Assembly (NCBI RefSeq): GCF_000003605.2
Contig: NW_003124895.1
Location: forward strand, 519,319 to 583,318
Origin: Saccoglossus kowalevskii
Lineage: Eukaryota; Hemichordata; Enteropneusta; Harrimaniidae
Length of the DNA stretch: 64,000 nucleotides
Reading direction: 5' to 3'
Positions within the stretch are counted from its first letter, which is position 1. The number at the start of each line of letters is the position of its first letter. Shown piece by piece: positions 18,201 through 64,000 of this stretch. The notes beneath the pieces were generated by a model, which did not search any database, was not told the origin of the DNA, and saw only the letters and a program-made list of their open reading frames with translations. Both the position numbers and the translations under genes were made by a program.

Positions 18201-20075
18201 GACTTGACGAGGAAGGAATATATTTATCTTGACATTGCGGTAACAGGGATAGTTCCACCATGGGACCAGGTGCGTTACACAACATGGAAAGTCCGTAAAT
18301 TAGGTTCCTCGCTCCGTTGTGTTGTTAAAAATAGCAGTGTATTTCATAACCAATCATATTGTACTACTACGACTTTACGGTACATTGATTACCCGTGATA
18401 CTCGAGGCATGAAGTGATATGCTGTATTCTGAAATAAATAAGAAATTCTTACTGTAACGAAACAACTGAAGATTAAAAGCTCTGTTTTCATTTGTACAAT
18501 TTAGCAAATTATGAAGAAATCCTGCCACTGCCCCGGATGAATTGCGAGATTTTTGCAATCAATTGCACTCGATCGGATCTCTTGGTTGTAGAATATTCCA
18601 GTTAAATTGTTTCTCCCTGCCCAACCCATAAACAACGCATAGTGTGTGAACGGATGTATTGTGTCTGTCAGGGATTATACAACTGTTCATCCAGGTTTAG
18701 TACGTTTCATTAAAGTTAGGTTACCTTAAAATCTAATTGATTATATCATTGAAGAACGACTTTTCGCTTTACTGAAATAAAATCATCTTGATTGTTTATT
18801 TTCTTTCAATTTTCTTGAAATATTGTAGAAAGCATAAATTACTTCATAATCCAGGCTATCGCTAATTCATCTGCTACAAATTTAAATGTACATACCAACT
18901 ATAACTATTGCACCGAATGTCTGAATCTCCATTATAGAATTCTTAGTTCAGTTTCCATGGGTGCCTTTCAAAAATATAATAATAAAGAAATGCGAACTCC
19001 GCTAATTATCCATGGAGTCACTTGAATTGACACAAACACAAATACACTCCGAGGAATAGAATAAATAGACTATTCTTGGGTTAGATTTCAAAGCTTGGAG
19101 CAAATGTAGAATCCTTTGATGTTCTTCAACGCAAAAATGAGACATTTGCGTGGGTGGATGATCAGTAATGAGTTAGGTCTTCCACGATTCAATGTGGTAT
19201 TTGCCTTGTGCGTTGAATTCGACATTCATTTTCTTGCAGACGACATGAAAATATACATATAAAAACAGGGAGGAATGGTGAGTGTTTTTCTAAGTTGAAC
19301 TGAATAGCGAACATCGTTACAGTAGAATCATTCTTGAGAAATCTTCTAGAAATGGTGCATGCATGTACTCCGTATTACTTAAACACGGCCAATGGTTGCT
19401 TGATAACCCGCTGTTTATTGATGAAGACTGAATGCAGAGATGGTTCTAAGGTTGAAGTAATTCATGAATTAATAGCTCCCTTATTCTCCATATGATTAAA
19501 ATGGTCAACCGTGGTTAACTATTTATAAAGAACATTGTTCAAAATGCGTTGCCTTGGCGGGTGTCCCGATGCTCAAATAGGCGATATCATAAATGGGTCG
19601 TGGACATTTTTGTCCATGGAGAAACGTTTTCTTTGTTTGAAAGAACATTGGATATAGTTGACTGTCCATATCACGTTGCGATCGTTAGATGTAGTCGCTT
19701 CTCGTTTTATGTACTCAAGTAACATGCAGTCTAGTACTTGGGATCACAGATTGGTCCATATTTTACAGCTTTCATAAAACAGACTTTGAAGCGAGATTCC
19801 TAACTAGAATAAAATAGTACCCATTTTTACGTTGCAAAGGCCGACATCACAACCTGTACATATTTGTGGTGAATGACTTGCTTTAAGTGCTTTGATTGTG
19901 GCATAAATTAATTTGCAGAAGATCCACACTCCTGATTTCAAAATAAATCCCATGTTTTTATGAATCCTCCCATCCAGATTCTGCGTATAACATTGAAGCG
20001 TAATTCGTCATCACATATTGTATTTAATTGGATATGAAATGTATATAATTATGTCCATGGTTTGCATTTTGTTCA
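15265..20075. other. intergenic or intronic, nothing recognised
   Basis: AT-rich; frames all under 80 codons with no recognisable product. Confidence 0.5.
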
Positions 20076-21010
20076 NNNNNNNNNNNNNNNNNNNNNNNNN
20101 NNNNNNNNNNNNNNNNNNNNNNNNNNNNNNNNNNNNNNNNNNNNNNNNNNNNNNNNNNNNNNNNNNNNNNNNNNNNNNNNNNNNNNNNNNNNNNNNNNNN
20201 NNNNNNNNNNNNNNNNNNNNNNNNNNNNNNNNNNNNNNNNNNNNNNNNNNNNNNNNNNNNNNNNNNNNNNNNNNNNNNNNNNNNNNNNNNNNNNNNNNNN
20301 NNNNNNNNNNNNNNNNNNNNNNNNNNNNNNNNNNNNNNNNNNNNNNNNNNNNNNNNNNNNNNNNNNNNNNNNNNNNNNNNNNNNNNNNNNNNNNNNNNNN
20401 NNNNNNNNNNNNNNNNNNNNNNNNNNNNNNNNNNNNNNNNNNNNNNNNNNNNNNNNNNNNNNNNNNNNNNNNNNNNNNNNNNNNNNNNNNNNNNNNNNNN
20501 NNNNNNNNNNNNNNNNNNNNNNNNNNNNNNNNNNNNNNNNNNNNNNNNNNNNNNNNNNNNNNNNNNNNNNNNNNNNNNNNNNNNNNNNNNNNNNNNNNNN
20601 NNNNNNNNNNNNNNNNNNNNNNNNNNNNNNNNNNNNNNNNNNNNNNNNNNNNNNNNNNNNNNNNNNNNNNNNNNNNNNNNNNNNNNNNNNNNNNNNNNNN
20701 NNNNNNNNNNNNNNNNNNNNNNNNNNNNNNNNNNNNNNNNNNNNNNNNNNNNNNNNNNNNNNNNNNNNNNNNNNNNNNNNNNNNNNNNNNNNNNNNNNNN
20801 NNNNNNNNNNNNNNNNNNNNNNNNNNNNNNNNNNNNNNNNNNNNNNNNNNNNNNNNNNNNNNNNNNNNNNNNNNNNNNNNNNNNNNNNNNNNNNNNNNNN
20901 NNNNNNNNNNNNNNNNNNNNNNNNNNNNNNNNNNNNNNNNNNNNNNNNNNNNNNNNNNNNNNNNNNNNNNNNNNNNNNNNNNNNNNNNNNNNNNNNNNNN
21001 NNNNNNNNNN
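20076..21010. other. assembly gap (935 N)
   Basis: Unresolved bases. Long frames crossing it are artefacts of translating N. Confidence 1.
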
Positions 21011-46163: not shown

Positions 46164-46397
46164 ACAGCAATTTCGTCCTTGGCAATGCCCAGGTTGCAAA
46201 TGGTTACCCTATCGTCTACTGTTCCGATGGATTCTGTGAACTTACGAACTATTCTCGAGCCGAAGTCATGCAAAAAGGATGTGCCTGTAAATTCCTGTAC
46301 GGCGCGCAAACCGACGAGGACAAAAAAGAAGAGATTGAAAATTCACTTGAACATAAACAAGAACTTAAAACGGAGGTCATGTTCCAAAAAAAAAGCG
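46164..46397 (+). CDS. Elk: Elk exon: N-terminal half of PAS domain
   Basis: Acceptor ...TTATTTTATAG before 46164 and donor GTAAGA after 46397. The exon enters with two bases of a split codon and leaves with one. It encodes [19 protein letters not shown] followed by [19 protein letters not shown] and CACKFLYG, the first PAS strands and helices of an ELK channel. An upstream exon ending in one base of a split codon (for Asp if it is G) is required. An unspliced frame reads on past the donor, but it loses family similarity at once. Confidence 0.93.
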
Positions 46398-49300
46398 GTA
46401 AGAATAGAATATTATTATTTACAGACCGTTTCTCTCTGCAATATCATGGTAATCAACTTGAAGACAGGAGCATAAACACGTATCCCATAATACTCATGCT
46501 TCCTGGCCTCAAAACCTCTTATAGGTCGCTTGTCATTCTACAACCTATACGTGTTCATCAACATACAAACAGTATCAATTACAAGAAACGTTACATGAAC
46601 CCAGCCATATTGCAACTTCAACACGCACACACGGATATGCAAATAAGCTAGCACATTATAACTTGACTTTAAATGGTTGCTCATACGGTATCCCAACACG
46701 CCATAATTCTTAATATTCCTGTTTCTACAGAAACTCCTTTTTGGTGCTTACTGGACATCGTACCGATTAAAAATGAAAAAGGAGAAGTAGTTCTTTTTCT
46801 TGCGTCTTTTAAGGATATCACGAAAACGAAAGTAACCAACATGGAAGAAGACAAAAGTAGCGAAGGTAATTCACGCCATTTTCTATATATCAACTAGTGC
46901 GCAACGCACGTGATTAGACACCTGACTATAAAATTGTGCCAATATAAATTACTCCTGCTCAGTTGAAAAGTTGTTTTTTGAAATTTGAACATCGTTTATC
47001 ATTATAAATGATTTTTATTAACTTCCGATAGGGAACGAAATCTAAAAATGCTTTGATTGCCCAGAAATAGTTTAATGACATTAAATGAAAAGAGAGTTGT
47101 TTAAATATTTTTTGTTTTCGTTTCGCCCTGCAGCTGAGTTCAGTGACGATGAAGAGGAGGCCATTAGGCAAAGATATCTTCGAGGGCGTGGAGGTAAAAC
47201 ACCCAACGGATCGGGAAAACAGTTTAATTACCAAAGACGACGGAGTCGAGCAGTATTGTATCACTTATCAGGGCATCTTCAAACAAAACAAAGGAAAAAA
47301 AGAAAATTAAATCTCAGTAATGTAAGTGACGTGTACTTTAATGGCATCGAATTCCGGTTAGAGTAATCATGCAGATTACGTCGACTTTTGGTTGAAGTAA
47401 TCGTGCATGTCCCGTTTTTTTGTTCCGGTTTGGGTAATCATGCTGGTTGCGTCGACTTCCGGTTGGGGTAATCAGTCGCGTTGACTTCCGGTTGGGGTAA
47501 TTATACAGGTTGCATTGACTTCCGGTTAGGGTAATCATGCAGGTTGCGTTTAATTCCGGTTGGGGTAATCGTTGCGATTTCTCCCCGATCGAGGGGTTTG
47601 GTAATCAGACTGCACCGACCATTTAGAGTTAAAAGTAAAAATATAATTCATTAATATTTGTTTTGCAAAAGTATTTGTTTTCTAGTAAAAAACATAATAG
47701 CGTGAAAAAATACATTTGCGCTTCTACTATAAACTATTTATTTAGTTTAACTATTTAACATAATTAATGCATGTTTGGCTTATTATTATATTTAATATAT
47801 ATTAACTATTTATAGATCACCATTTTTAGTAAAACTCGTCATTCTACTTACGGAAGATATATAGCTGATTTTCACTGTTATCGCAAGTATTAACGAGTCC
47901 GTATAATGTTTTTTACCCCTACACGTGGCAGACAAAAGCACATAGGAAGGTACAACCTATACAATCTAGCGTTTTATCAACGGTTTGATTCTGGGACTAA
48001 CTTCCTGCTCGACATGCGATTAAGTTTTAAATCTATTACAGTTAATTGTGTGTTGCATGTTCGTGTGAATATATATATATATTTAATTTTACTAACAATC
48101 GGACTCCCAGTTCGAATTTTGCTCCAATTTGCACGACACAGATGGTCCATGATAAGAAAATACATTGCATGCATCTCCATTCAGTTCAATTGTCACAGAT
48201 TGCATCCTTGCCATGAAACACCACACGTATACACTTATACAAACTCAAGAACCTTCGGCATCAGGTTTCTTTGCCAATGAATAATTTAATCGAGATGCTT
48301 GTGTTTCTATTCTGCTATCTAAATAATTTATCTTTGCATACTAAATTCTTCAAAGGTAAACGACACACCGAACTTTGCTTTTAATTTAGTTATTTTGTAC
48401 TCAATAAAACTAAACTAAACTATACTCGGTAATCGCCGAGATATTGATGTATTTCCAGATTTACTGTGGGTCCATATTAGGTACAAAAGCCATATACAAA
48501 GTAATACGCCCAGGTTAAAAACAATACAATACATTACAATTATGCGAGAATCGACATTAAAAGCAAATGACCGCCGAAATCTCGTTGAAAGCTAGGAAGT
48601 AGCGAGGCTTGTTCTTGCTCTTCAAATAGTGTTTCATTCTGTACCGTATCGTGTCCACTGTTCCCCTGAGCAACGTAGCTATGGTATTTGGAACAGTGGG
48701 GCAACGACGGGAGAAAGAATGGCACACTACATGAGGAACAAAACAAATCGCGTGGCTCTCTCGTATCGTTCTCAACGAAATCTCGGCAGCCCCATTTGCG
48801 AATAAGGCCTATTTTAAAACCTGTACTTCGACTTGTGAAGAAATACAGATCGACTCTCAAACATACATAAATACCATATATGGGTATTGCTGTATTTGGC
48901 GTTATACGCATGCGCAATGTATCCTAATTATTTCCTTGTAATTTCTGGCTACCTAATTTAAATATATGCAACTCAATCAAACGTGAAATTGTTAAATAAG
49001 TCTGGAACTATGTCAAGAAATCAATAATTGCAGCGTCAGAAGGGTTTCGTAAAATCCACGTTATTTATGAATCAATTAAAACACGTTGTTTATGACATTG
49101 CGTATTAACTATGGAAAATTAGCTTTTAATCACGTAAAATGTTGAGAATAAATGAGCTACATAAACGAAAAAAATACTTGGGCACTTTTGCATTCGGATA
49201 TATCCAAATATAAAATATAAACAACGTGGTTTTTACAAAAAAATTTAACTTAGACTTAGACTTAATATTAAAAATACGTACTTTATTCTCTATCTGACTA

Positions 49301-52300
49301 TTAGTAACTTGTGACCTTTTTTCACCTGTTCCCACAGAACCTCCTTGCTCCTACGAAGAGGTCAACCTTACCAGAGTACAAACTAGCAACTGTGAAAAAG
49401 TCTAGATTCATTCTTTTGCATTATAGTACTTTCAAAACGGTGTGGGATTGGCTAATACTTTTAGCAATGTTTTATGTTGCCATTGTCGTGCCGTATAATG
49501 TGGTTTTCTACAAGGAAAAAAATACGGATAGTACAGCTATTTATACTGACCTTATAGTTGAATTCCTTTTTATATTTGGTGAGTAAATGATATAACTAAA
49601 TGTTGTTCTTTATTTTATAATGTGTACCTATTTATGTACTAGTAATTCAATTTACTAATTGATGTATTAAAGTATGTTTCATCTATTTGCATTTACCAAC
49701 AATATTGACCTCATACTAACCGCATATTTCGATGCAACAATTCGCCTTTGATGCGTATAGTTACATAGTGTTTTCATGGTTTTCAATCAACAGACATCGT
49801 TCTAAACTTCCGCACAACATACGTCAGTGAGTCGGGCCAAGTTGTATATACACCAAGGGCTATAACTATTCACTATCTTAAAAGCTGGTTTTTTATTGAT
49901 CTTTTGGCTGCAATACCTCTTGATTTACTTTATTTGGCAAAAATCAATACGGTGAGTAATAATTTCTTTTTTCTGTGTTTTTCCCGGATGCGCTTCCAGA
50001 TACACTCGAGCGGATAGTGTAGTGTATAGACTACAATGGCCGTCGATATCTCGCTGGGAGCGAAAGAGCTGCGAGACTTGTCTCAAATCGTGTACCATTC
50101 ACTTCCGTCATGGCGGCCACTGTTTCGTGTAACTATGATATGTGTAAAAAGTGAACGCGATGAAGGGAAAGAAAACGCTATTGTAGGTGCAAAACCAGTC
50201 TCGTGGCTCTCTCGCCTCCAACGAGATCTCAACAAGAGTTTTAACACCTATTTTGCTGATTTGAATAGCTGGGCCTTAGACACGAATGGCCGCCATTTTC
50301 TCGTTGAAATATCGTGAGGCACGTGACTTGTTTTCGTCCGTAAGTTGTGTTCTTCTCTTTTCTCTCGATCTGTCCACTGTTCGAATGATCTGTGTAGTAA
50401 TGACATTCGAACCAGTGAATGCGAAAAATCAACAGCTATTTGCATTGAATGTAGATTACTCATAACCAGTTGCCTGTAAATATAAATGTACTCGGTTCAT
50501 CTTTATCGCTATTTGTCAGTAGGGTACTGGTGCTATGTATTTACTGAAACTTGTTCGTCTTCTACGGGTTGCAAGGCTATTACAAAAAATGGAAAGATAT
50601 TCTAACTACAGCGCAGTTGTTATATCCTTCCTTATGTGTATGTTCGCTTTGGTGGCGCATTGGTTGGCGTGCGTATGGTACGTGATTGGCCAGCAAGAGT
50701 TACAGAATGCAGACCATGCCACAGCAGGTGAGACAACATATACTTACTTGTCAAGTGCTCTTTGAGGGAGTGGGGGGTAATCAACATATTTGACGGATTG
50801 ATTATATTTTCTAATATGAGAGTGATATACATTGTACGTTTTCAATACGATGTTGAGGTTGTGATTAGAGTATATATTGTTATATTTGCGTGTTATTCGC
50901 AATATTTATTTTCACTTAATACCAAGAGTGATCGCAAAATGCTCTAGGCAAAATGTTATCATTATTTATTTAAAAAATGACGTTTTTATGACTCTACCAA
51001 AAAACATTTATTCGATAAATCGATTAAAATACAACATACAACGAACATTCATGAAAAAATATGAAATAGATGGGATTCGATAGATGGATGTCGACTGGGG
51101 GGCCCGACGCATGAAAGAATGGTGATAATAATCTACTAATTCATTTTTTTTCGTTTGAAGGTTGGATACACGATCTGGTCCACGATCTTAATTTACATTG
51201 GCCTAACGCCACCAACGTTGATGACCTGTATATCACATCATTGTATTACACATTAAGTACTATCACCAGTGTCGGCTTTGGGAATGTGTCAGCTGATACG
51301 AATAACGAAAAAATATTCACAATTGTCATAATGCTAATTGGAGGTATTTATTTTGTTTTATTTTAACGCCAAAGTCAACTTCAGTCCCCATAATTTGCTA
51401 CCGTACATTTCAAACATTTTGATCAAAACTTTATTAAAGAATTTATGTTCAGATGCTCCAAAATTATAAATATACAAATGTGCGAAATGAATAATTATGG
51501 CGTCCAGAGAGTTACATTTGTATGGCGTCATTATCAGTCGCTAGAGCATCTCGAGGTATGAAGAGGGCTAGGATATTACTGGGTAACCAATACGCTTTTT
51601 TCCCCTTTATTTTCCAAGGTCGCTTCTGAGTTTTATTTTTCGTAACGCATTAGACGACTAATCTAGTTATGTGTTTTCCTTTTTGCCTTTGATTCTTTAA
51701 ATAAATGGTAGAATTGGATAGGTTTACTTTTGCTTTCATTCGGAACCGGAAGCATTTTATCACCCCGCATGATTTGTAGATATGCAAAACAGATAACGAT
51801 GCACCGTATGTTAAATTTCACAGCTCTCATGCATGCCGTAATATTCGGTAATGTGACTGCGATTATCCAACGTATGTACTCTCGAAGAGCTCTCTACCAA
51901 GCTCGGGAACGAGACTTGAAGGATTTTACGAGATCACAAAACATTCCAAAGCCATTAAAAAGGAGGATAATGGAGTATTTTATGACACTGTGGTCCATGA
52001 CAAACGGAATTGACGCGCACGAGGTGAGTCACGTGCGTGTTTAACACTGAGGACGTTCGTGAGAAAACATCGTTTTAGTGTTATTTCAACGACTATTAGG
52101 CTAATGTTACGGTGGTTGACTCTACAATGACTTAATTCACTTAGTCTAAGCAACGTTTGTTAAACAATCATGAATAGGTAAATCACAGCATGTAGTTGAG
52201 TTTGTGAATTATGTTATGATTGTTACCTTATGTTAAGATTGTTATCTTTAACTTTTTCTCGTTATGACTAACAAATTAGGTATTCCGATTCGCATCTCAA

Positions 52301-55300
52301 CTCATGAGACAAATGGTGGAAATTTCCTTGTAAAAATATTTTGTAATGTACGTAAGGTGTAGAGAAGAACGCAAGCGAGAACGGACACGTGATATAGGTT
52401 GAATAACATATACAGCTAGTTTTTTGTCAAGTATCGTGTTCCCCTTTGTACTTTAGATCGAACAGATTTTACTACAATACGCACATTATTTACCTCTTTT
52501 GTCATTTTCTATTTCATTTGTTTTTCTATTTTATCCCCGGCAGATGTTACGAGATTTCCCGGAAGAGCTGCGAGCAGATATATGCATGCACCTTCATAAA
52601 GAAATACTGTCCCTTCCAATTTTTGAACTCGCAAGTGCTGGCTGCTTGAGATCCCTTTCGCTTCACATAAAAACTAGTTTTTGTGCTCCCGGGGAGTATC
52701 TCATACATAGAGGTGATCCCCTTAACTCAATTTGGTATCTTCTAAACGGGTCCATGGAAGTGCGACGAGATGGCATGGTTGTTGCAATATTAGGTAAGCC
52801 TGGGATGGGTCTGTGTAAATTAAAATATAGCAATATTGCATTGCAAAATACATATGTATTAGTAAATTTTCTTTCAACAGAGTTAGGTTTTTAGCGTTCT
52901 TTGAATAGTTATATACGCTTTCTTCAACTTTGTTTTTGCATTCATTGTCACAATATTCAAATCACGTGTTACTTTTGTGTCGTACTTCAAATAGGAAAGG
53001 GCGATTTGTTCGGGTGTGACCTATCGACGGAAATCGACACAGTGGTCCAGTCTAATGGTGACGTCCATGCGTTAACGTACTGCGATCTCCAATCTTTGAA
53101 CAGGTATTGTCAGATAATTATTCATGAGAGCGAAGATTTCAAATCGGTCGACATTTCTGAACAGGTTGACAGTTAATTGTGTCGAATCAAAGTTGCACAG
53201 TCACCAACAACTCGTTGTATGACATACACGTTGCTTTCTAGCACGATTTGTATTCCTGTTCTCATACCAAAAGATACTAATTACTTACAAGTGAATTTTT
53301 TTTTATTATTGTACATAGCAGGTCAGGTTTATCAGAAGTTCTCACTAATTACCCGGAGTACGCTGCAAAGTTTGCACAGGAGATTTTGCACGACCTCACC
53401 TACAACCTCAGAGAAGGATACGACCCGGATGTGAGTACACTTTCAAATTCAAATCATTATGGTATTATACTGGACGTGTCATGCGTGGCTTAAAGGTTAG
53501 AGTGTCCGCCCAGCGAAACGGACACTGCCCGTTGACTACCGTGACTATGGTCGATTGTCCGCTTAGCAATGAGAAAGAGTACAATATGCCCATTTGATAG
53601 AAAACATTCAATGTGCGAACGCAATCACAGTATCCCTGTCACAACGAATAGCAGAACAATTATTGCGGGGCGACTGGGATATACCTGTGAAAGGGTTAAT
53701 AAATAAATGCAAATAAATTACGTTGTTCTGTACAATAAAATTAAAATTGATTTTTTTTTAAATAATTTGAAGCACCGTTCGAAAACGCCGCACGCGTTTG
53801 ATTAAAGAAACATTGTACTTAGCGCGTGTTGTGAAGGTCATACAAGACCAATAACCACAATGAGGCGCGGTAATGTGACGTTTTCCATCTAAACATCCCC
53901 ATAGTCTAGCTATCTAACTATTTAATACAGCCTTAGAATAAAAATTAACGTTATTCCGTCAAATTGGAAATCTTGAGTGGCCCAATTGTATTGCAATATG
54001 ATGTATCATTGTAGGCTATATTCTGTTTGTTTTGTAACCTTGTGCCCTGAAAATACCTGCCACTTCAGGCAAGGGAATTTGTATTCAGTTCTAGCACGAC
54101 CAGCAGACTAATCCATTGCCGAAGAGCAGTGTCTGTCTGACTCATAACAAATGTACGGAGAAAAAAAAATACATATAAAAAAGCCTATGATTAATATCAT
54201 GTGTTAATCAAATTGTTACACAACGTGCATTGCTTGTTTCAACTTGCACCTATTCTCATCCTCACATCGATCCATTTGTTTATACCCACCTGCTTTTACC
54301 GAACACCCAGCGCGAGGACGACGATATTAAACCCAGCGTAAGTACTTATACAACCTTTATAACAATAATTCACTTATTTAGTCCACCTTTTGAGTATAAC
54401 TGTATTGCTGGTTAGTTGTTCATTTTTCCCATAAAAATTAAAGTTACATGTTATGTCGTGTTTAAATTGTGTGTACGCTCACCTTTGGTTTCTAATGACA
54501 ATTCTTGAAAACAAAACTTTTCATTTCTACTTGCCCGGCCCATCCACAGAGAACATGTCGTAAAAGAGTAAGTTCAAACAACATTTCTTAGCATTGGGTG
54601 GATTTATCTCTATCACCCCAAAGTATTTTATTCATTTATTTATTATTTTTTTTGGAAATACATTATCACTTACGGGGTATCTGATGTGTGCATGCGACAT
54701 TCAAAATTACGTTTATAGTATTTACATCTTGCATGGGACTGTCAGGCCACGTATTCATTCATCGTGGAAAGACAGTTACATTTATATTACAGTAATCTTT
54801 GTCTGTGTCTTCATTCTGTAACGTATTATCAAGGACTGCATATTTAAATGAAATCATTTATATTCATAATAATTTGATATATCATGCCTGTGGTCGAGAT
54901 TCCCATCTGTTTTGGTTTAATTTGCTTCCGGTATATTGATTGTTTTTCTCTGCATGAATAAGACTTGTAAACACTTCATCCATTCAATAAATCTCATGCC
55001 AGTTTAAATACCTAGACTTGCATGCTGTTAAAACCATTTTATCAATACTTTTCCTACTCATAGTACCACTTCCTAATACACTACTTTTCCCGTTTTACCT
55101 AAATGTCTCGTATGTATGTTTTTGGACTAGTGTTTACTAAAACCCCGCAGCAGACTTCCTAAAGTAAGTGTTTTTTCTCTCTCATGACAGTATTTCCCTT
55201 TTTGTTGTAACTTCTCTAAGCTGCTCCATCTTTCATTTCTCTCTGCGTATTAGTACGTCCGCAAACAATTAAACGTATATCGTGATCATACACAACATTA

Positions 55301-58300
55301 CCTTTCATTGCAATTGTTAACTATTTGCCACATGCGAAATAACTTAATGCTGGAACTTTGAGTTCGATTTTCCTCAAACTAACGTTATATTAGCTTCAAA
55401 TATCTTTCCAATAACCACGCCTTGATATATTTGAAATATGCAGTCTTTGTGTGCCTGTAAATACCCAATGTGTAGCATACACCTGGTTTTTTATAATATT
55501 TTAATTCCGTTTTCGGGCACTTCACCAGTTGTTGCACTTGTTCTGCTGTCAATGCTGTAGTATTAAATGTTGGCAAAGTTGAAGGAGAATGTTATCTGTT
55601 CTATCTTATATTGTGGAAGCAATTCTTGGACAGTTTTTTTGGGGGTGACCTATCTACATTTTGTATCTTGTTACTATGTCTATAGCGTAGTAAACATTGT
55701 CGTGGATTTCCGTCTTAACATTGTTGTATTGTTATGCACGAAGCAGTTACCTTCTACGCTTGTTGTGCGAGTACGTCGTTATACCGTGGTTTATCGTACT
55801 CACTGCCGCGGTTTTCACCTTAATTTTTCACAGTCTGAGAATGAACTTAACGGGTTGCATTCCCACCTGCCGTCAATTTCCGAAGACGAAGAATACGAAG
55901 AAGACGATGAAGACGAAGATGATTCCGATGATGACAACAGTACAGGATCACCAGCATCTTTAAAAAGAGAAGGTGTAACGAGGCTGGAAATTCCAAATGT
56001 TCCCTACGCGCCCTCTACCGGTGGGCCCAGTGGGGATCTCAGTCCAAGGTATTTACAACAATGTACTTCAGAATGTATTCGCGATAGGCGATTGTACTGG
56101 CTGTTGCAATTAATGCCGCGAGGGAAATGAGATACAACTATTGGGTTTGTGTGGGGTTACGCCACTGCTGCCTCTCGTTACTTCTTGTACATACAGTACT
56201 GACAGCACACTTTTACACATATATCCCATTTGGAATATAGCACCGATGTTCCTATCGTAATTTCATGATAGCAATTCAATACCCTAACCTATCGAGCACA
56301 GGCACATGAGGATCACTCCCGGTTGCCCTTACCGTTGTCTCGTTCATTGGTGAACACAAGTTCACAGTATAAGATTCGACCTATAATTTGTTGGTGTTAG
56401 GAAGTTCCGGTCACGTGCCCGGCACAGCATGCTCGACTAACGGCGATTACCACTTCGCTATGTGATCTTTTTTCCGCATTGGCACAAATCGATACTTAAT
56501 ACTACAACGATCTTTGGTTATTGAATTTGTTCAAAACTAATCGATAACCTATGCTCTTGGTTCTCTCCTAGGTTCGTTGATGGCGTTGAGGACGATAACA
56601 ATCAGTATAAAAACAAGACGTTTGATTTTCCATTGACCAAGCTACCCACGAGCTCGAGGAATCGAAGCCCTGTCCTTGTAAGAGCGAGGACTCGACCCGG
56701 AAATTGTCAACAGGACAGCGCAGTAAAACCAAATTGCCCACCACGTCAGCTATATCAGGGTACGGAGCTATGTTATCCTTGTTATGATTAGTTGTGTGTT
56801 AATAATACTACTACATTCGTCGGAAATTCGAGTTGTTTCTCTGCGTTTGCAAACGGTTTGCGTATATCAGTTTGTGTAACTCAAAGACTTGCTAATTTAT
56901 AACCCCCAACGAATGTTTGGGGTGTTGCTATGGTATTTTACAACCTGAGATAAACATGACACCATTTCAAATCAGTAAAACAATTTATCTCAGTGAATAC
57001 AAAAGCGAGATCTCCAATTAATGTATCAAAATAAAGCTCATGTAGTGATCTTAAACATTAAACCTAGTTTAAAATAATTTCAATATTTAATATTGTGGCC
57101 CTATCTTGAGATTTTTTGTATTTTGTAAATTTACTGCGACGAAGCTGTTCTAATGACGTAAATTAGATTGGTGATATTAATGTTGTGCACAGCGACAACT
57201 TTCTGTAATTCGTGGTTTACAATGAAGGCAGTAATTATTAACATTATCAGTAAAGATAAAAACATAGCGATATAATGTATTCGTCCCTAGAGGGCGCAAT
57301 TTCAACACAAGTTTCACACACAGCGATTGCGATCGCGTGTGCCAGTGTTGTGCTATATGTGTGCGCGTACTATTTTTTACTCAACGAACTAAGTGATTAC
57401 AGCTACTCACGAGAATGAACAAACCGAAACAATCAAAAGCTGTTGTCTCATGACGTGACCTTTCGTGTGACTGTCCGCACAGAATCGTTCAAATAATATT
57501 GCTTTTCTATTTTAGGGAACAGAGCAGACTCTACGGAATCTATAGCGGGAGCCGAACTGAAGCAAGAAGTAGAGTATACGAGAAACAGTGTTGAAAGGTT
57601 GGATAAGCAGGTAACACTCAGTTTCATAGCACCGAATTCACCACGAACAACTGTACACATTCTAATAGCTGTGATTTTGAACATTTTTTTTTAAATAACC
57701 AAATATAGATGACTTCGCGTCATCTCACTGAAGTACTATTTTAGCCAAGCTAAGCTAAGGTAACATAAAATGTAATTTGGAAACTAAGGGCCGAGTAGCC
57801 GCCATTTCCTTTATATTTTGAAAATTATGACGCACACTTATGGGAATGATACATGAAGTCATCTGTAAGAGACCTTCTATGAGCGGCTTCGCCTCTCAAG
57901 ATGGCAAATTAATTGACAGTTTTCCCATCGATAAATTGTCATCTTGTACCCTAATCCCTTTGGCTTGCTTGACAAAACGGGATTTCAATAGATGGCACCC
58001 TTTAGAGACGTGGACGCAACCCGCGGCAATCTTCTTTTATTTGCAAGTAATTTGATGTATAACGTCGGTATATTGTATATGTACTAGTCATTGAGTGTCC
58101 ATATTTTGGCAATGGTCGTTATCATTTGGCTAATGGCACGGGAAATGTTTCATTAAAATTGCCGCTTTATGATAAACGCAACTTTAATTAAATTGCCAAA
58201 TATTATACACCGAAGTCTTAAGGCAATATTTTAGATTTGTTGACTGAATTACGCAGACTAAACCCGGCTAGATAACTATATATACACACTGAAGAGTTGT

Positions 58301-59003
58301 ACGTATATGGTCGCCGTGCATACAATTTGGCGAATGATTAACTTATTTTTACGCATGTACTATAACAATTCAGAACGGTTTCTCTGGTTCATTTCTACTG
58401 CTGATCAGATATGCAAGCTCATGTACAAATTGTTGTACGTAGTATCGGCTGCGCTACGCTGCCTGAAATATAGTTAATGCCCATAGGGGTTAAACGCCAG
58501 TTCGTCTTCATCATTTCGCTGTCGTTTTTTCACAGGTATCAACCTTGAGTCAGGATGTTGCCAGTTTAAGCCAGGACTTGCGATCAGTCATTCGCCTTTT
58601 GCAGATGTCAACGCCCCCACCTGTTGGTGCAAATGATCCGGACAGCTTAAGCAATGTGCCAAAAACTCAAAATACACAAGGAAACAACGCAAACCGACAA
58701 AGTGCACTTCAAGAGACTTCTTTTCCGTTACGGACTGCCTCTGACGGATCAGCGGGTTCCAGACCCTCTTTGATCACACAACGCTCAGGTACTTCGACGC
58801 CGCCCAGTGTCTCGTCTGGGAGCGGCGTTTGGCAAAAACGAGATGCCTTTGTAAGGAGGAGGGACTCGCATCCACCGTTGAAGCCAGTCAAAAGTACGAA
58901 CCTAGATGAAACACTCAAGAACGATAGCCAAGATGAAACGAGTGTCACTGGGTTAGAGAGCGACGGGTATGATGATTCCGAATGTAGTGGCACAGATCTA
59001 TAG
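46164..59003 (+). CDS. Elk: ELK-type (KCNH3/4/8-like) voltage-gated K+ channel, 18 exons seen, first exon missing
   Basis: A tetrameric plasma-membrane potassium channel of the EAG/ERG/ELK (KCNH) family, which sets subthreshold excitability. Seen: joining the exons listed below keeps one frame throughout (about 1017 codons after two leading bases, ending TAG at 59001-59003). Domain order is the family's: PAS with NFVLGNAQV and YCSDGFCEL, then [35 protein letters not shown]1-S4 voltage sensor, S5-pore-S6 with SVGFGN, C-linker, CNB homology domain, intrinsic-ligand YNL, C-terminal coiled coil. From memory of the family, the PAS text and [10 protein letters not shown] stretch resemble KCNH8/Elk more than EAG or ERG. 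Odd: the first exon (about 20-25 residues of PAS-cap) is not recognised upstream, so the true start is unknown and may lie in the 46-kb upstream tract, the N gap or outside the window. Three microexons sit before the acidic linker. I am sure of the family and fairly sure of the exon borders; which microexons enter the mRNA is open. Confidence 0.95.
46731..46865 (+). CDS. Elk: Elk exon: C-terminal half of PAS domain
   Basis: Acceptor TTTCTACAG, donor GTAATT, phase 1 at both ends. It encodes [19 protein letters not shown] and [15 protein letters not shown], the last PAS strands and one of the most conserved blocks in ELK channels, then a charged linker. The split codon across the intron reads Glu. 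The preceding intron is 333 bp and unremarkable. Confidence 0.93.
47134..47321 (+). CDS. Elk: Elk exon: linker between PAS and S1
   Basis: Acceptor TCGCCCTGCAG, donor GTAAGT after 47321, entering in phase 1 and leaving in phase 0. It encodes an acidic stretch ([19 protein letters not shown]), a Gly/Ser/Asn spacer and the ELK signature [16 protein letters not shown]. An internal GGAGGTAAAA could act as an earlier donor at 47193, but it would drop that signature. A minisatellite begins about 20 bp past the donor. Confidence 0.9.
47343..47572. repeat. minisatellite, ~34-bp unit, about 7 copies
   Basis: Degenerate tandem units, each built around CTTCCGGTTGGGGTAATCAT then GCAGGTTGCGTCGA. Unit length varies from about 29 to 39 bp. 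It begins about 20 bp past the donor of the [10 protein letters not shown] exon. The 66-codon - strand frame here reads the repeat and is not a gene. Confidence 0.9.
47590..48560. other. Elk intron, no feature seen
   Basis: AT-rich intron sequence between the minisatellite and a foldback repeat. Frames in it are short and unrecognised. Confidence 0.6.
48565..48799. mobile_element. MITE-like foldback repeat, family 2, copy B (in Elk intron)
   Basis: The left arm CAAATGACCGCCGAAATCTC then GTTGA is the imperfect inverted complement of the right arm CAACGAAATCTCGGCAGCCC then CATTTGCG. About 235 bp. Interior similarity to copy A at 13150. The overlapping - strand 125- and 72-codon frames are by-products. 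Confidence 0.7.
49338..49578 (+). CDS. Elk: Elk exon: pre-S1, S1 and start of S2
   Basis: Acceptor TTCCCACAG, donor GTGAGT, phase 0 in and 1 out. It encodes [20 protein letters not shown], then S1 ([20 protein letters not shown]) and the beginning of S2 ([10 protein letters not shown]). The S1-S2 loop is short and charged. The upstream intron (about 2 kb) holds a minisatellite and a foldback repeat. Confidence 0.95.
49794..49951 (+). CDS. Elk: Elk exon: end of S2 and S3
   Basis: Acceptor TCAATCAACAG, donor GTGAGT, phase 1 in and 0 out. It encodes [19 protein letters not shown] and then S3 ([18 protein letters not shown]). The Asp residues of S2/S3 that pair with S4 charges in KCNH channels are present. 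The exon has the length and borders expected for the family. Confidence 0.95.
50034..50262. mobile_element. MITE-like foldback repeat, family 2, copy C (in Elk intron)
   Basis: Left arm AATGGCCGTCGATATCTCGC then GAGCTGCGAGACTTGTC; right arm AGTCTCGTGGCTCTCTCG then CCTCCAACGAGATCTC. Inverted and imperfect. The 93-codon + frame over it is a by-product. Confidence 0.65.
50283..50335. mobile_element. partial foldback repeat, family 2 (one arm)
   Basis: AATGGCCGCCATTTTCTCGT then TGAAATATCGTGAGGCACG and TGACTTGTTTTCG match the left arm of family 2. It lies about 20 bp after copy C; no clear partner arm is seen. Confidence 0.5.
50523..50727 (+). CDS. Elk: Elk exon: S4 voltage sensor and S5
   Basis: Acceptor TTTGTCAGTAG, donor GTGAGA, phase 0 in and 1 out. 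It encodes the S4 helix [16 protein letters not shown] with regularly spaced K/R gating charges, the S4-S5 linker (MERYSNYS) and S5 ([20 protein letters not shown]), then the start of the turret. The upstream intron holds two copies of a foldback repeat. Confidence 0.95.
51161..51343 (+). CDS. Elk: Elk exon: turret, pore helix, selectivity filter, start of S6
   Basis: Acceptor TTTGAAG after a T-rich tract, donor GTATTT, phase 1 both ends. It encodes a turret with a possible N-glycosylation site (NATN), the pore helix (YYTLSTIT), the KCNH filter SVGFGN and the beginning of S6 ([12 protein letters not shown]). The filter is complete and canonical, so the channel should conduct K+. Confidence 0.95.
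51824..52023 (+). CDS. Elk: Elk exon: S6 end and C-linker
   Basis: Acceptor AATTTCACAG, donor GTGAGT, phase 1 in and 0 out. It encodes the S6 gate region [19 protein letters not shown] and C-linker helices ([37 protein letters not shown]). The next intron (520 bp) shows no further coding. Confidence 0.95.
52544..52793 (+). CDS. Elk: Elk exon: C-linker end and cyclic-nucleotide-binding homology domain
   Basis: Acceptor TTATCCCCGGCAG, donor GTAAGC, phase 0 in and 1 out. It encodes [40 protein letters not shown] and [16 protein letters not shown], the beta-roll of the CNB homology domain. In KCNH channels this fold is thought to bind the channel's own C-terminal strand rather than cAMP. Confidence 0.95.
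52995..53103 (+). CDS. Elk: Elk exon: CNB homology domain, continued
   Basis: Acceptor CTTCAAATAG, donor GTATTG (weaker than its neighbours), phase 1 in and 2 out. It encodes [10 protein letters not shown], a variable loop ([12 protein letters not shown]) and [14 protein letters not shown]. The 'LTYCDLQ' string is diagnostic of the family. Confidence 0.92.
53322..53430 (+). CDS. Elk: Elk exon: end of CNB homology domain with YNL intrinsic ligand
   Basis: Donor GTGAGT, phase 2 in and 0 out. It encodes [20 protein letters not shown] and [19 protein letters not shown] matches the intrinsic-ligand tripeptide known in ELK/EAG channels, which occupies the nucleotide pocket. The acceptor is a TAGCAG tandem (NAGNAG): the second AG gives the length expected from vertebrate homologues, the first would add one residue. 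Confidence 0.93.
53482..53560 (+). repeat. tRNA-derived SINE-like head (in Elk intron)
   Basis: A-box-like GTGGCTTAAAGGTTAGAG, then a 7-bp stem GTGTCCG/CGGACAC, then a damaged B box ATGGTCGATTGTCC. Spacing suits a tRNA-derived Pol III promoter. No clear tail or target duplication. Confidence 0.45.
53580..54310. other. Elk intron before microexon 1
   Basis: No coding or repeat signal apart from the SINE-like head upstream. The 3' end is pyrimidine-rich, as expected for the microexon acceptor. Confidence 0.5.
54311..54337 (+). CDS. Elk: Elk microexon 1 (27 bp)
   Basis: Candidate microexon: acceptor ACACCCAG, donor GTAAGT, length 27 and phase 0 at both ends, so it can be included or skipped without shifting frame. 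It encodes REDDDIKPS, an acidic insert between the CNB homology domain and the acidic linker. Transcript evidence would be needed to confirm use. Confidence 0.72.
54550..54567 (+). CDS. Elk: Elk microexon 2 (18 bp)
   Basis: Candidate microexon: acceptor CCATCCACAG, donor GTAAGT, 18 bp, phase 0 at both ends. It encodes RTCRKR, a basic hexapeptide with an RXR-like tripeptide (RKR). It is very short, but both splice sites are strong and correctly spaced. Confidence 0.62.
55131..55163 (+). CDS. Elk: Elk microexon 3 (33 bp)
   Basis: Candidate microexon: acceptor TTTTGGACTAG, donor GTAAGT, 33 bp, phase 0 at both ends. It encodes [11 protein letters not shown], a basic insert. An internal CGCAGCAG gives alternative acceptors, but these would break the frame, which favours the 33-bp form. 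Confidence 0.6.
55834..56048 (+). CDS. Elk: Elk exon: acidic linker
   Basis: Acceptor ATTTTTCACAG, donor GTATTT, phase 0 in and 2 out. It encodes [13 protein letters not shown], a run of almost pure Asp/Glu ([18 protein letters not shown]) and the conserved GDLSPR at the exon end. Vertebrate KCNH8 also has LPSI followed by an acidic run here. An unspliced frame extends about 270 bp upstream into intron, where no family similarity is seen. Confidence 0.9.
56572..56759 (+). CDS. Elk: Elk exon: conserved VDG/ED/FDF block and basic tail
   Basis: Acceptor TTCTCTCCTAG, donor GTACGG, phase 2 in and 1 out. It encodes [20 protein letters not shown], which continues LSPR into the LSPRxVDGxED...FDF pattern of ELK C-termini, then a Ser/Arg-rich variable stretch. 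Confidence 0.9.
57516..57610 (+). CDS. Elk: Elk exon: first half of C-terminal coiled coil
   Basis: Acceptor TTCTATTTTAG, donor GTAACA, phase 1 in and 0 out. It encodes [20 protein letters not shown], which has heptad spacing and joins the next exon to form the tetramerising coiled coil. The preceding intron (756 bp) has no other coding signal. Confidence 0.9.
58536..59003 (+). CDS. Elk: Elk last exon: coiled coil end, Ser/Thr-rich tail, stop
   Basis: Acceptor TCGTTTTTTCACAG, stop TAG at 59001-59003. It starts [20 protein letters not shown], the second half of the coiled coil as in KCNH8, followed by a low-complexity Ser/Thr/Pro/Gln tail of about 125 residues ending [10 protein letters not shown]. 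The tail is shorter than in vertebrate KCNH8. The terminal four residues (GTDL) resemble a class I PDZ ligand (S/T-X-hydrophobic); this is an inference from pattern only. Confidence 0.92.
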   Translation, partial: VSTLSQDVASLSQDLRSVIRLLQMSTPPPVGANDPDSLSNVPKTQNTQGNNANRQSALQETSFPLRTASDGSAGSRPSLITQRSGTSTPPSVSSGSGVWQKRDAFVRRRDSHPPLKPVKSTNLDETLKNDSQDETSVTGLESDGYDDSECSGTDL

Positions 59004-61705: not shown

Positions 61706-63366
61706 TTAACAAAGCAAATAATGTTTCATTTCATATGTACATTTGTTTCTGTTGGTGATGTTTTTGAGGGACTCTGGAAGTGAATTCCAGTGTTTTACTG
61801 CAGCAAATTTAAAATTATGTTGTGAAACTGTAAGTTGAGCAACAGGAATTGACAAGTTTCCGCTAGACACTGAACTTGTGGGATAGCAATGTGAGTAATC
61901 ATTAACATACTTATTGAGGCTATGTGCATATCTGCTGTGTTTAAGGTCGAAGATAAATAGGCAGGTTTGTAATTTACAAAGTTTGTGAATATCAAGTATG
62001 CGTAATTGGATAAAAAGAGGAGCAGAATGTGCTTTAAGTGCGAGATGAGTGCGAGAGGTGATAAGGCGCTCAACTTTTTTTGTGAAAGCAGAACTGGTTC
62101 AAGAAGTGTTGGGTATGTGTTTCCCCAGATTTCAATAAAGTACATTAAGTGTGGGAGAATAAGTGTGTTGTAAAGTAGTATGAGAATTGATCTGGGAACA
62201 TAGTGACGAATGCGAGATATAATGCCCACTTTGGGACTAATGGTTTTCACATTTTTTTCAATATGAGAATTCCAATTTAGGCATGGGTCAATGGTTACTC
62301 CCAGATAAGTGGCTTTAGACACGCCCTCTATCAACGTATCATTGATTGCGAGCTGTCCCTCCACTTTTACTTTTCTTTGCGGGATTTTCAGGATCATATA
62401 GTTTGTGTTTTCTACATTAATTGTAAATTTATTAGCATTGCACCACTGTACAACATTTTCAAAATCATTGTTAATATTAAAAAGATCAATAGAGTTAGTT
62501 TGCAGGTATTTAAATAAATTTGTATCATCTGCAAAGAGGTGGAAATTGAAAGCATCAGTGGAGTGGTTAATATCATTTATGTAGAGAAGAAAAAGTAAAG
62601 GCCCTAATATTGATCCCTTGGGCACCTCGTATTGAAGCTGTCTGGATGTGGATGCAGTTCCGTCAATGTTTACTGTTTGGTGTCTATTAGTTAGGTAGCT
62701 TCGGAACCACAAAAGCGGGAGACCCCTTATCCTATAATAAGCCATTTTTTTAAGGAGAATATTGTGGTAAATAGCATCGAATGCTTTTTTTAAGTCAATG
62801 AATACCCCAAATGTAACAAAACTGTTATCCATGTTGGCAGTGATATCAGAAACAAGGTCAACTAGGGCAAGGGCGGTACTGTATTTTTTCCAAAAACCAT
62901 ATTGTGAGGACAAGAGTATGTTGAACTTATTTAGAAAACCAAATAGCTGATGATTTACAGCTGATTCAAATATTTTACTGAATACGGGTGGAATAGATAT
63001 GGGCCTATAATTGCCGACATCCAGGGCAGATCCCGTTTTATTTACTGGTGTGATTGTGGCGAGTTTGAGAGAGTCAGAAAAAACACCTTGAGCTATAGAA
63101 CAGTTCAGAATGTGCGCCAGAGGTTTAGAAATATACTTTATAGCATCAATTACAAGTTTAGGATGCACGTGATCATGTCCCATTGCTTTGTTGGGGTCTA
63201 ATCGGTAAATAAATTCCATAATATCCCGTTCTGTGACTGCTTGAAGGAAAAAGGACGACGGTAAATTCCCTGTGAGATAGTGATTAAAATTTACAGATGG
63301 GTGAATTTTTCTGGCTAGCTCAGGGCCAATATTTGTAAAGAAATTATTGAATTCATATGCAATATC
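61706..63366 (-). pseudogene. non-LTR (CR1/Rex-like) retrotransposon reverse transcriptase, truncated and frameshifted
   Basis: A relic of a LINE polymerase, which copies element RNA at a nicked target. The main frame (474 codons from the Met at 63219) is open without a start up to 63366, where TGA (63367-63369) interrupts it. RT motifs: DPNKAMGHDHVHPKLV near the start, NYRPISIPPVF at 70-80, IDLKKAFDAI at 141-150 (motif A Asp), KGSILGPLLFLLYINDI at 201-217, FADD at 229-232 (catalytic), YLGVTIDPCLNWNSHI at 305-320. After residue ~382 the frame loses similarity at a T7 run (62075-62081); the LINE-like C-terminus continues in a second frame down to a stop near 61706. No endonuclease domain is seen. 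The family assignment is by motif style only; a Jockey/L2-clade element is possible. Confidence 0.88.
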
Positions 63367-63377
63367 TCAACTTCCTG

Positions 63378-63709
63378 TCAAAACTTTATCGGGAGCATCA
63401 CGGTTTGAAGTTTGTACCAAAATGTTAACGGAATGGAGACGATCCCGTGGTGTTCCCATAGTAAGCAGGCCTACATATGATAAGAGAATTAAATGCGATC
63501 AATTTACCGATATTTATTATATCGCAGGCAGACATCTTGAATACGGCTTGAAACTAAAGAAAAAGAAAAGTTCTACAAATCAGGAAAACAAACACCAAAT
63601 TTCCACAGCTAAACGATCCGTTTTAACATTAAGCCAAACGCTAATACAATCCGATTCTATTCGTCGCTTTTGTGTGGAAAAGTCTCTGGCTCAAGCAATC
63701 TGGTATTGA
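63378..63709 (+). CDS. unrecognised open frame between LINE and satellite
   Basis: A 120-codon frame from the ATG at 63347; its first ~10 codons overlap the LINE relic, so the meaningful part starts around 63378. The text is basic and polar (RFEVCTKMLTEWRRSRG, GLKLKKKKSS) with no membrane segment. No family is recognised. It stops six bases into the satellite array. It could be chance, a captured fragment, or part of a split gene. Confidence 0.2.
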
Positions 63710-64000
63710 TGTGGGGATTGCAAACTTCACACTTCTATTCATGTGAACATTCAATACGTCACACTTGTATTGATGTGGGGATTGCAAACGTCACACTTGT
63801 ATTCATGTGAACATTCTATACGTCATACTTGTATTTATGTGGGGATTGCAAACGTCACACTTGTATTCATGTGAACATTCTATACGTCACACTTGTATTC
63901 ATGTGGGATTGCAAACGTCACACTTGTATTCATGTGAACATTCAATACGTCACATTTGTATTGATGTGGGGATTGCAAACGTCGCACTTGTATTCATGTG
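63703..64000. repeat. satellite/minisatellite with 64-bp dimeric unit (runs off window)
   Basis: Two related ~32-bp half-units alternate. Form A reads TTGTATTGATGTGGGGATTG then CAAACGTCACAC; form B reads TTGTATTCATGTGAACATTC then AATACGTCACAC. About 4.6 dimers are visible, with few substitutions between copies. The right edge is not seen. Confidence 0.95.

Follow-up and report, generated by a model that had tools for sequence, protein, structure and literature searches.

The window analysed here, a 64,000-nucleotide stretch of the Saccoglossus kowalevskii genome (contig NW_003124895.1, positions 519,319 to 583,318, forward strand), carries a potassium channel gene whose exons were mapped one by one on the plus strand from about 46164 to 59000. 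The encoded order runs from a PAS domain through the transmembrane segments, with GFGN in the pore, to the C-linker, the CNBHD, an acidic linker and a distal stretch. When the exons are joined, Pfam PAS_9, Ion_trans and cNMP_binding are all found in one gene. The last CNBHD exon, which has one match in the source assembly (572,110,611 bases, 4830 contigs), matches PDB entries 3ukn and 2mhf. The entry name of 3ukn is potassium channel subfamily H, and we take it to be the zebrafish ELK CNBHD. A PDB search at E<=10, restricted to a 177-residue C-terminal part of the protein, returned four matches, namely 2mhf, 3ukn and two unrelated entries, with no EAG or ERG chain among them. The YNL motif present in this exon is common to ELK and EAG (PMC7515569). 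Together, the three domains and the structural matches agree with the family named in the first-pass annotation and support the reading of the gene as an ELK-type (Kv12/KCNH) potassium channel.

The gene model is incomplete at two points. A scan with a KCNH N-terminal motif gave no convincing first coding exon in the window; this exon may lie upstream of the window or inside the N gap near 20000-21000. Further downstream, the exon starting RFVDGVEDD ends at 56677 in phase 0 with a good donor (GTAAGA), whereas the exon at 57516 (GNRADSTES) can be joined only to a phase-1 exon. It is likely that a small exon of 3n+1 nt has been missed between them or that another donor is used, and scanning 56678-57505 gave no convincing candidate for such an exon.

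Several other features accompany the gene. A 34-base degenerate tandem repeat occupies 47352-47570, about 30 bases past the donor of the exon at 47134-47321. Adjoining the channel gene, a 523-codon open frame on the minus strand (61798-63366) has a reverse transcriptase match (RVT_1, E 6.8e-26) and is retrotransposon-like. A tandem array at 63703-64000 can be read with a period of 32 (9.3 copies, 78% matches) or of 64 (4.7 copies, 94% matches), and it probably consists of two alternating 32-base variants. At the other end of the window, an (AAGT)n microsatellite at 902-978 alone supplies 18 of the 30 GTAAGT hexamers of the plus strand.

The region of main concern lies between the CNBHD and the acidic linker, where three small candidate exons are found:

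53322..53430, plus strand: upstream exon, end of the CNBHD, encoding (R) plus 36 residues, donor GTGAGT, phase 0, matching PDB 3ukn/2mhf
53401..53409, plus strand: codons of the intrinsic-ligand motif YNL, seven residues from the end of the exon
54311..54337, plus strand: candidate microexon 1, 27 nt, REDDDIKPS (acidic), GTAAGT
54550..54567, plus strand: candidate microexon 2, 18 nt, RTCRKR (basic), GTAAGT
55131..55163, plus strand: candidate small exon 3, 33 nt, 11 residues (basic), GTAAGT
55834..56048, plus strand: downstream exon, acidic linker, phase 0 acceptor

All three candidates lie inside one 2403-base phase-0 intron (between 53430 and 55834). The upstream exon ends GAC CCG GAT before GTGAGT and the downstream exon starts TCT GAG AAT at 55834, both in phase 0, and each candidate has AG directly before it, GTAAGT directly after it and phase 0 on both sides. 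The insertion point falls seven residues after YNL, the motif named for the ELK intrinsic ligand (PMC7515569). The first-pass annotation had proposed segments of 27, 18 and 33 nt at 54311..55163, and their coordinates, lengths, peptides and phase proved exact. Its description of the donors as perfect GTAAGT sites holds for the six intronic bases, but not for the last exon bases, which are C, A and A instead of the consensus G. The eight in-frame isoforms it proposed are likewise right as to frame, which stays open in 8/8 inclusion patterns; they are combinations permitted by frame, not transcripts observed. Across these combinations, 0 to 26 residues would be added, and the net charge of the stretch from YNL to EDEEYEE would range from -12 to -2.

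Two origins of this arrangement were considered and set aside. Tandem duplication of one ancestral microexon finds no support, as the intron holds no direct repeats of at least 18 nt. A repeat origin of the intron finds none either within the sequence compared, as blastn gave no copies of it in the window or in 20 control loci. Among viral and prokaryote contigs, no relatives with the intron were found; 20 pattern matches in prokaryotes are not relatives.

The sequences upstream of the candidates were compared with those of neural microexons that depend on the enhancer of microexons (eMIC), for which long AG exclusion zones, a UGC near the 3' splice site and CUAAY branch points have been described (PMC8797185). 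The corresponding features in the intron are as follows:

54184..54308, plus strand: 125-nt AG-free zone ahead of microexon 1; TGC at 54291-54293 (-20)
54444..54547, plus strand: 104-nt AG-free zone ahead of microexon 2; branch-point-like CTAAT at 54492-54496 (-58) and TGC at 54532-54534 (-18)
55064..55128, plus strand: 65-nt AG-free zone ahead of exon 3; CTAAT at 55073-55077 (-58) and no TGC within 35 nt

The AG-free zone is clearly long before microexons 1 and 2 only. Such zones are rare in the window as a whole, where 47 of the 6037 AGs on both strands have one that reaches 100 nt. The gene's 15 other acceptors show the same features in several cases: a TGC between -10 and -30 at 4/15, a CTAAY within 120 nt at 4/15, and AG-free zones that reach 60 nt at 6/15 and 100 nt at 1/15. 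For this reason, TGC, CTAAY and AG-free zones do not single out the microexons and are only partly distinctive. The likeness to neuronal microexon programmes noted earlier finds support in the cis-features themselves (the zones before microexons 1 and 2, two TGCs, CTAAT before microexon 2 and exon 3), and weakened by their limited distinctiveness.

These observations bear on the best-surviving alternative, according to which the three segments are genuine but constitutive small exons, so that the channel always has a 26-residue linker and no splicing switch. The full GTAAGT donors are consistent with it, as are splice-site scores within the range of the gene's other exons, and an open frame in all combinations is equally expected of constitutive phase-0 exons. 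On the other hand, the splicing machinery does not easily recognise unaided an exon as short as 18 or 27 nt. The rare long AG-free zones (125 and 104 nt), as in regulated microexons (PMC8797185), also argue against it; this rarity is not decisive, because one of the gene's 15 other acceptors exceeds 100 nt too. Constitutive use is unlikely on balance, and carries some weight nevertheless.

The strength of the splice sites was scored with approximate matrices typed from general knowledge. On this scale, the donors of candidates 1-3 score 1.7, 2.6 and 4.2, against 0.7-8.0 for the gene's 12 other donors; these moderate values result from the non-consensus last exon bases. The gene's 14 other acceptors score -2.3 to 8.1, and the acceptor of exon 3, at -0.5, is the weakest of the three candidates. 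Exon 3 also contains two inner AGs, the use of which would give an exon of 13 or 10 nt and a frameshift. Microexons have been defined as 3-27 nt long (PMC7935315); with a length that is a multiple of three, the candidates of 27 and 18 nt fall inside this range and that of 33 nt outside it. A second alternative is that exon status is confined to the first segment or the first two, and that the third is a chance match. Its weak acceptor, the lack of a nearby TGC, an AG-free zone of only 65 nt, the inner AGs and the length all point that way. Against it, segment 3 has an open frame and a symmetric length, and it passes a filter based on signals alone, which only seven other places pass across about 293 kb of strand. 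This makes a chance origin of the third segment rather improbable.

The signal-only filter was a frame-blind scan for GTAAGT preceded by a segment of any length from 6 to 60 nt, with 60 nt or more free of AG ahead of the acceptor. It covered the rest of the window and 20 control loci, 147,633 real bases on both strands (the ~293 kb of strand), and left out sequence lying up to 200 bases from an N or from an end. Three matches lie in the 2.4 kb intron and the seven mentioned elsewhere; lengths that are multiples of three account for 3/3 of the former and 0/7 of the latter. An intron-sized stretch would be expected to hold 0.06 such matches, and the Poisson probability of three is 3e-5, before an extra factor of 1/27 for symmetry. 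With an AG-free cut-off of 50, there were 12 matches elsewhere, four of them at one AAGT microsatellite, and 2/12 were multiples of three. Relaxing the donor to GT[AG]AG at a cut-off of 60 still gave three in the intron, and 38 in other sequence, of which 13 were multiples of three. The gene's other mapped introns yielded no further GT[AG]AG candidate, whatever the frame, at lengths of 6-60 nt and an AG-free cut-off of 60.

Any GTAAGT has some AG shortly upstream, and an AG at a multiple-of-three distance before it is easy to find. When the matrix threshold is placed at the score of the weakest candidate, open symmetric candidates number three in the intron, and seven on the plus and six on the minus strand in the rest of the window. 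GTAAGT counts alone are not convincing, given that at least three per intron occur in 63/2000 dinucleotide shuffles. A strict scan required exact GTAAGT, an open symmetric segment of 9-51 nt and 60 nt or more without AG ahead of the acceptor. Candidates 1-3 were its sole matches on both strands of the window, and control sequence from the same scaffold, with 84,568 real bases (200,000 letters, the rest N), gave none on either strand. Among 2000 dinucleotide shuffles of the intron, 1965 contained no match, 34 one, one two and none three. The cut-off of 60 was picked once the zones (125, 104 and 65 nt) were known, so these strict-scan figures flatter the case somewhat. When the AG-free zone is dropped from the strict rule, the intron has four matches (three donors), the rest of the window four on the plus and three on the minus strand, the scaffold controls 15, and 10/2000 shuffles at least three.

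The view that all three segments only mimic splice sites by chance, within a long intron, draws on these last counts, in which open symmetric matches become common and chance GTAAGT triplets appear in shuffles, but the signal-only enrichment, the 3/3 symmetry and the lack of any shuffle with three strict candidates make it very improbable. Candidates 1-3 are very probably real exons, a reading that is supported by the strict scan, the shuffles, the scaffold control and the frame-blind enrichment.

If the candidates are real exons, they may join the CNBHD to the acidic tail through a linker of modular build, made of cassette exons that would each be included or skipped separately. At least one of the three is probably alternatively spliced, and the joint claim that they are real exons with at least one of them spliced alternatively is reasonably likely. 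Inclusion might occur mainly in neurons through the eMIC (Srrm234) route. Regulated neural use is plausible, and the chances of neural, eMIC-dependent inclusion are slightly short of even. In favour, fly eMIC-dependent microexons are enriched in ion channels (PMC8797185). Against it, the eMIC exons of fly and mouse show no overlap, and the words Elk, Kcnh and potassium are absent from the main text of that fly paper (PMC8797185).

The consequences for the channel can be proposed on the basis of related proteins. In ELK channels, activation is shifted when YNL is mutated, voltage changes are accompanied by movement of the intrinsic ligand, and PIP2 acts on potentiation (PMC7515569); moreover, potentiation involves contact between the eag domain and the CNBHD (PMC5440166). 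Inclusion of the small exons would alter the length (0 to 26 residues) and charge (-12 to -2) of the tether behind the intrinsic ligand. An altered tether could change how firmly the ligand strand is seated in the CNBHD, or how the tail contacts PIP2 and the eag domain, and such changes might tune voltage-dependent potentiation and deactivation. An effect of the candidates on gating through the intrinsic ligand is possible and somewhat doubtful. A bolder proposal, absent from the papers searched, is a combinatorial three-microexon code behind the KCNH intrinsic ligand that would set tether length and charge neuron by neuron and so control voltage-dependent potentiation; as a whole, this is unlikely.

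Subthreshold excitability is thought to be set by ELK channels (PMC7515569). If the proposed regulation is true, a potassium channel would join the ion channels in the microexon programmes of non-vertebrates. Additionally, in-frame inserts right behind a ligand that moves with voltage would offer ready-made constructs to test how the tail of the CNBHD tunes gating. No report of ELK microexons was found in the open-licence literature searched, which is consistent with the earlier remark that the site had not been described for these channels. Vertebrate ELK proteins presumably also have, between their CNBHD and acidic region, a variable segment that is basic and rich in serine, which offers no more than a lead for comparison. 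For KCNH3, an ELK gene, a review has a table row on splicing misregulation in autism, apart from its microexon text (PMC7218542). Passages from other papers deal with KCNH2, Kcnh7 or aligner settings.

The closest comparison within the family is human KCNH4, an ELK gene in which calcium-regulated skipping of a C-terminal exon, with a predicted premature stop, was seen in neural cells (PMC2374990). As there, the S. kowalevskii candidates lie in the C-terminal coding region of an ELK-family gene; unlike the predicted premature stop and truncated tail of KCNH4, they are tiny, and every combination stays in frame (PMC2374990). With regard to structure, the alignment of the upstream exon with 3ukn spans residues 177-211 of a 212-residue chain and takes in YNLREG. 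The solved chain, however, stops where the inserts begin, and the insert region has no structure in the match.

Compared with eMIC (Srrm3/Srrm4/Srrm234) neural microexons, candidate exon 3 differs in being 33 nt long and without UGC. The candidate donors agree with the consensus at all six intronic positions, in contrast to the fly eMIC set, which is described as having weak donors (PMC8797185). In other respects, the candidates resemble these neural exons: they are very short, preserve the frame and lie in an excitability gene, with long AG exclusion zones before them, UGC near two of the three acceptors and a branch-point-like CUAAU before two of the three (PMC8797185). The three candidates are most likely a real microexon cluster in an ELK gene, of an already known kind and at an interesting site.
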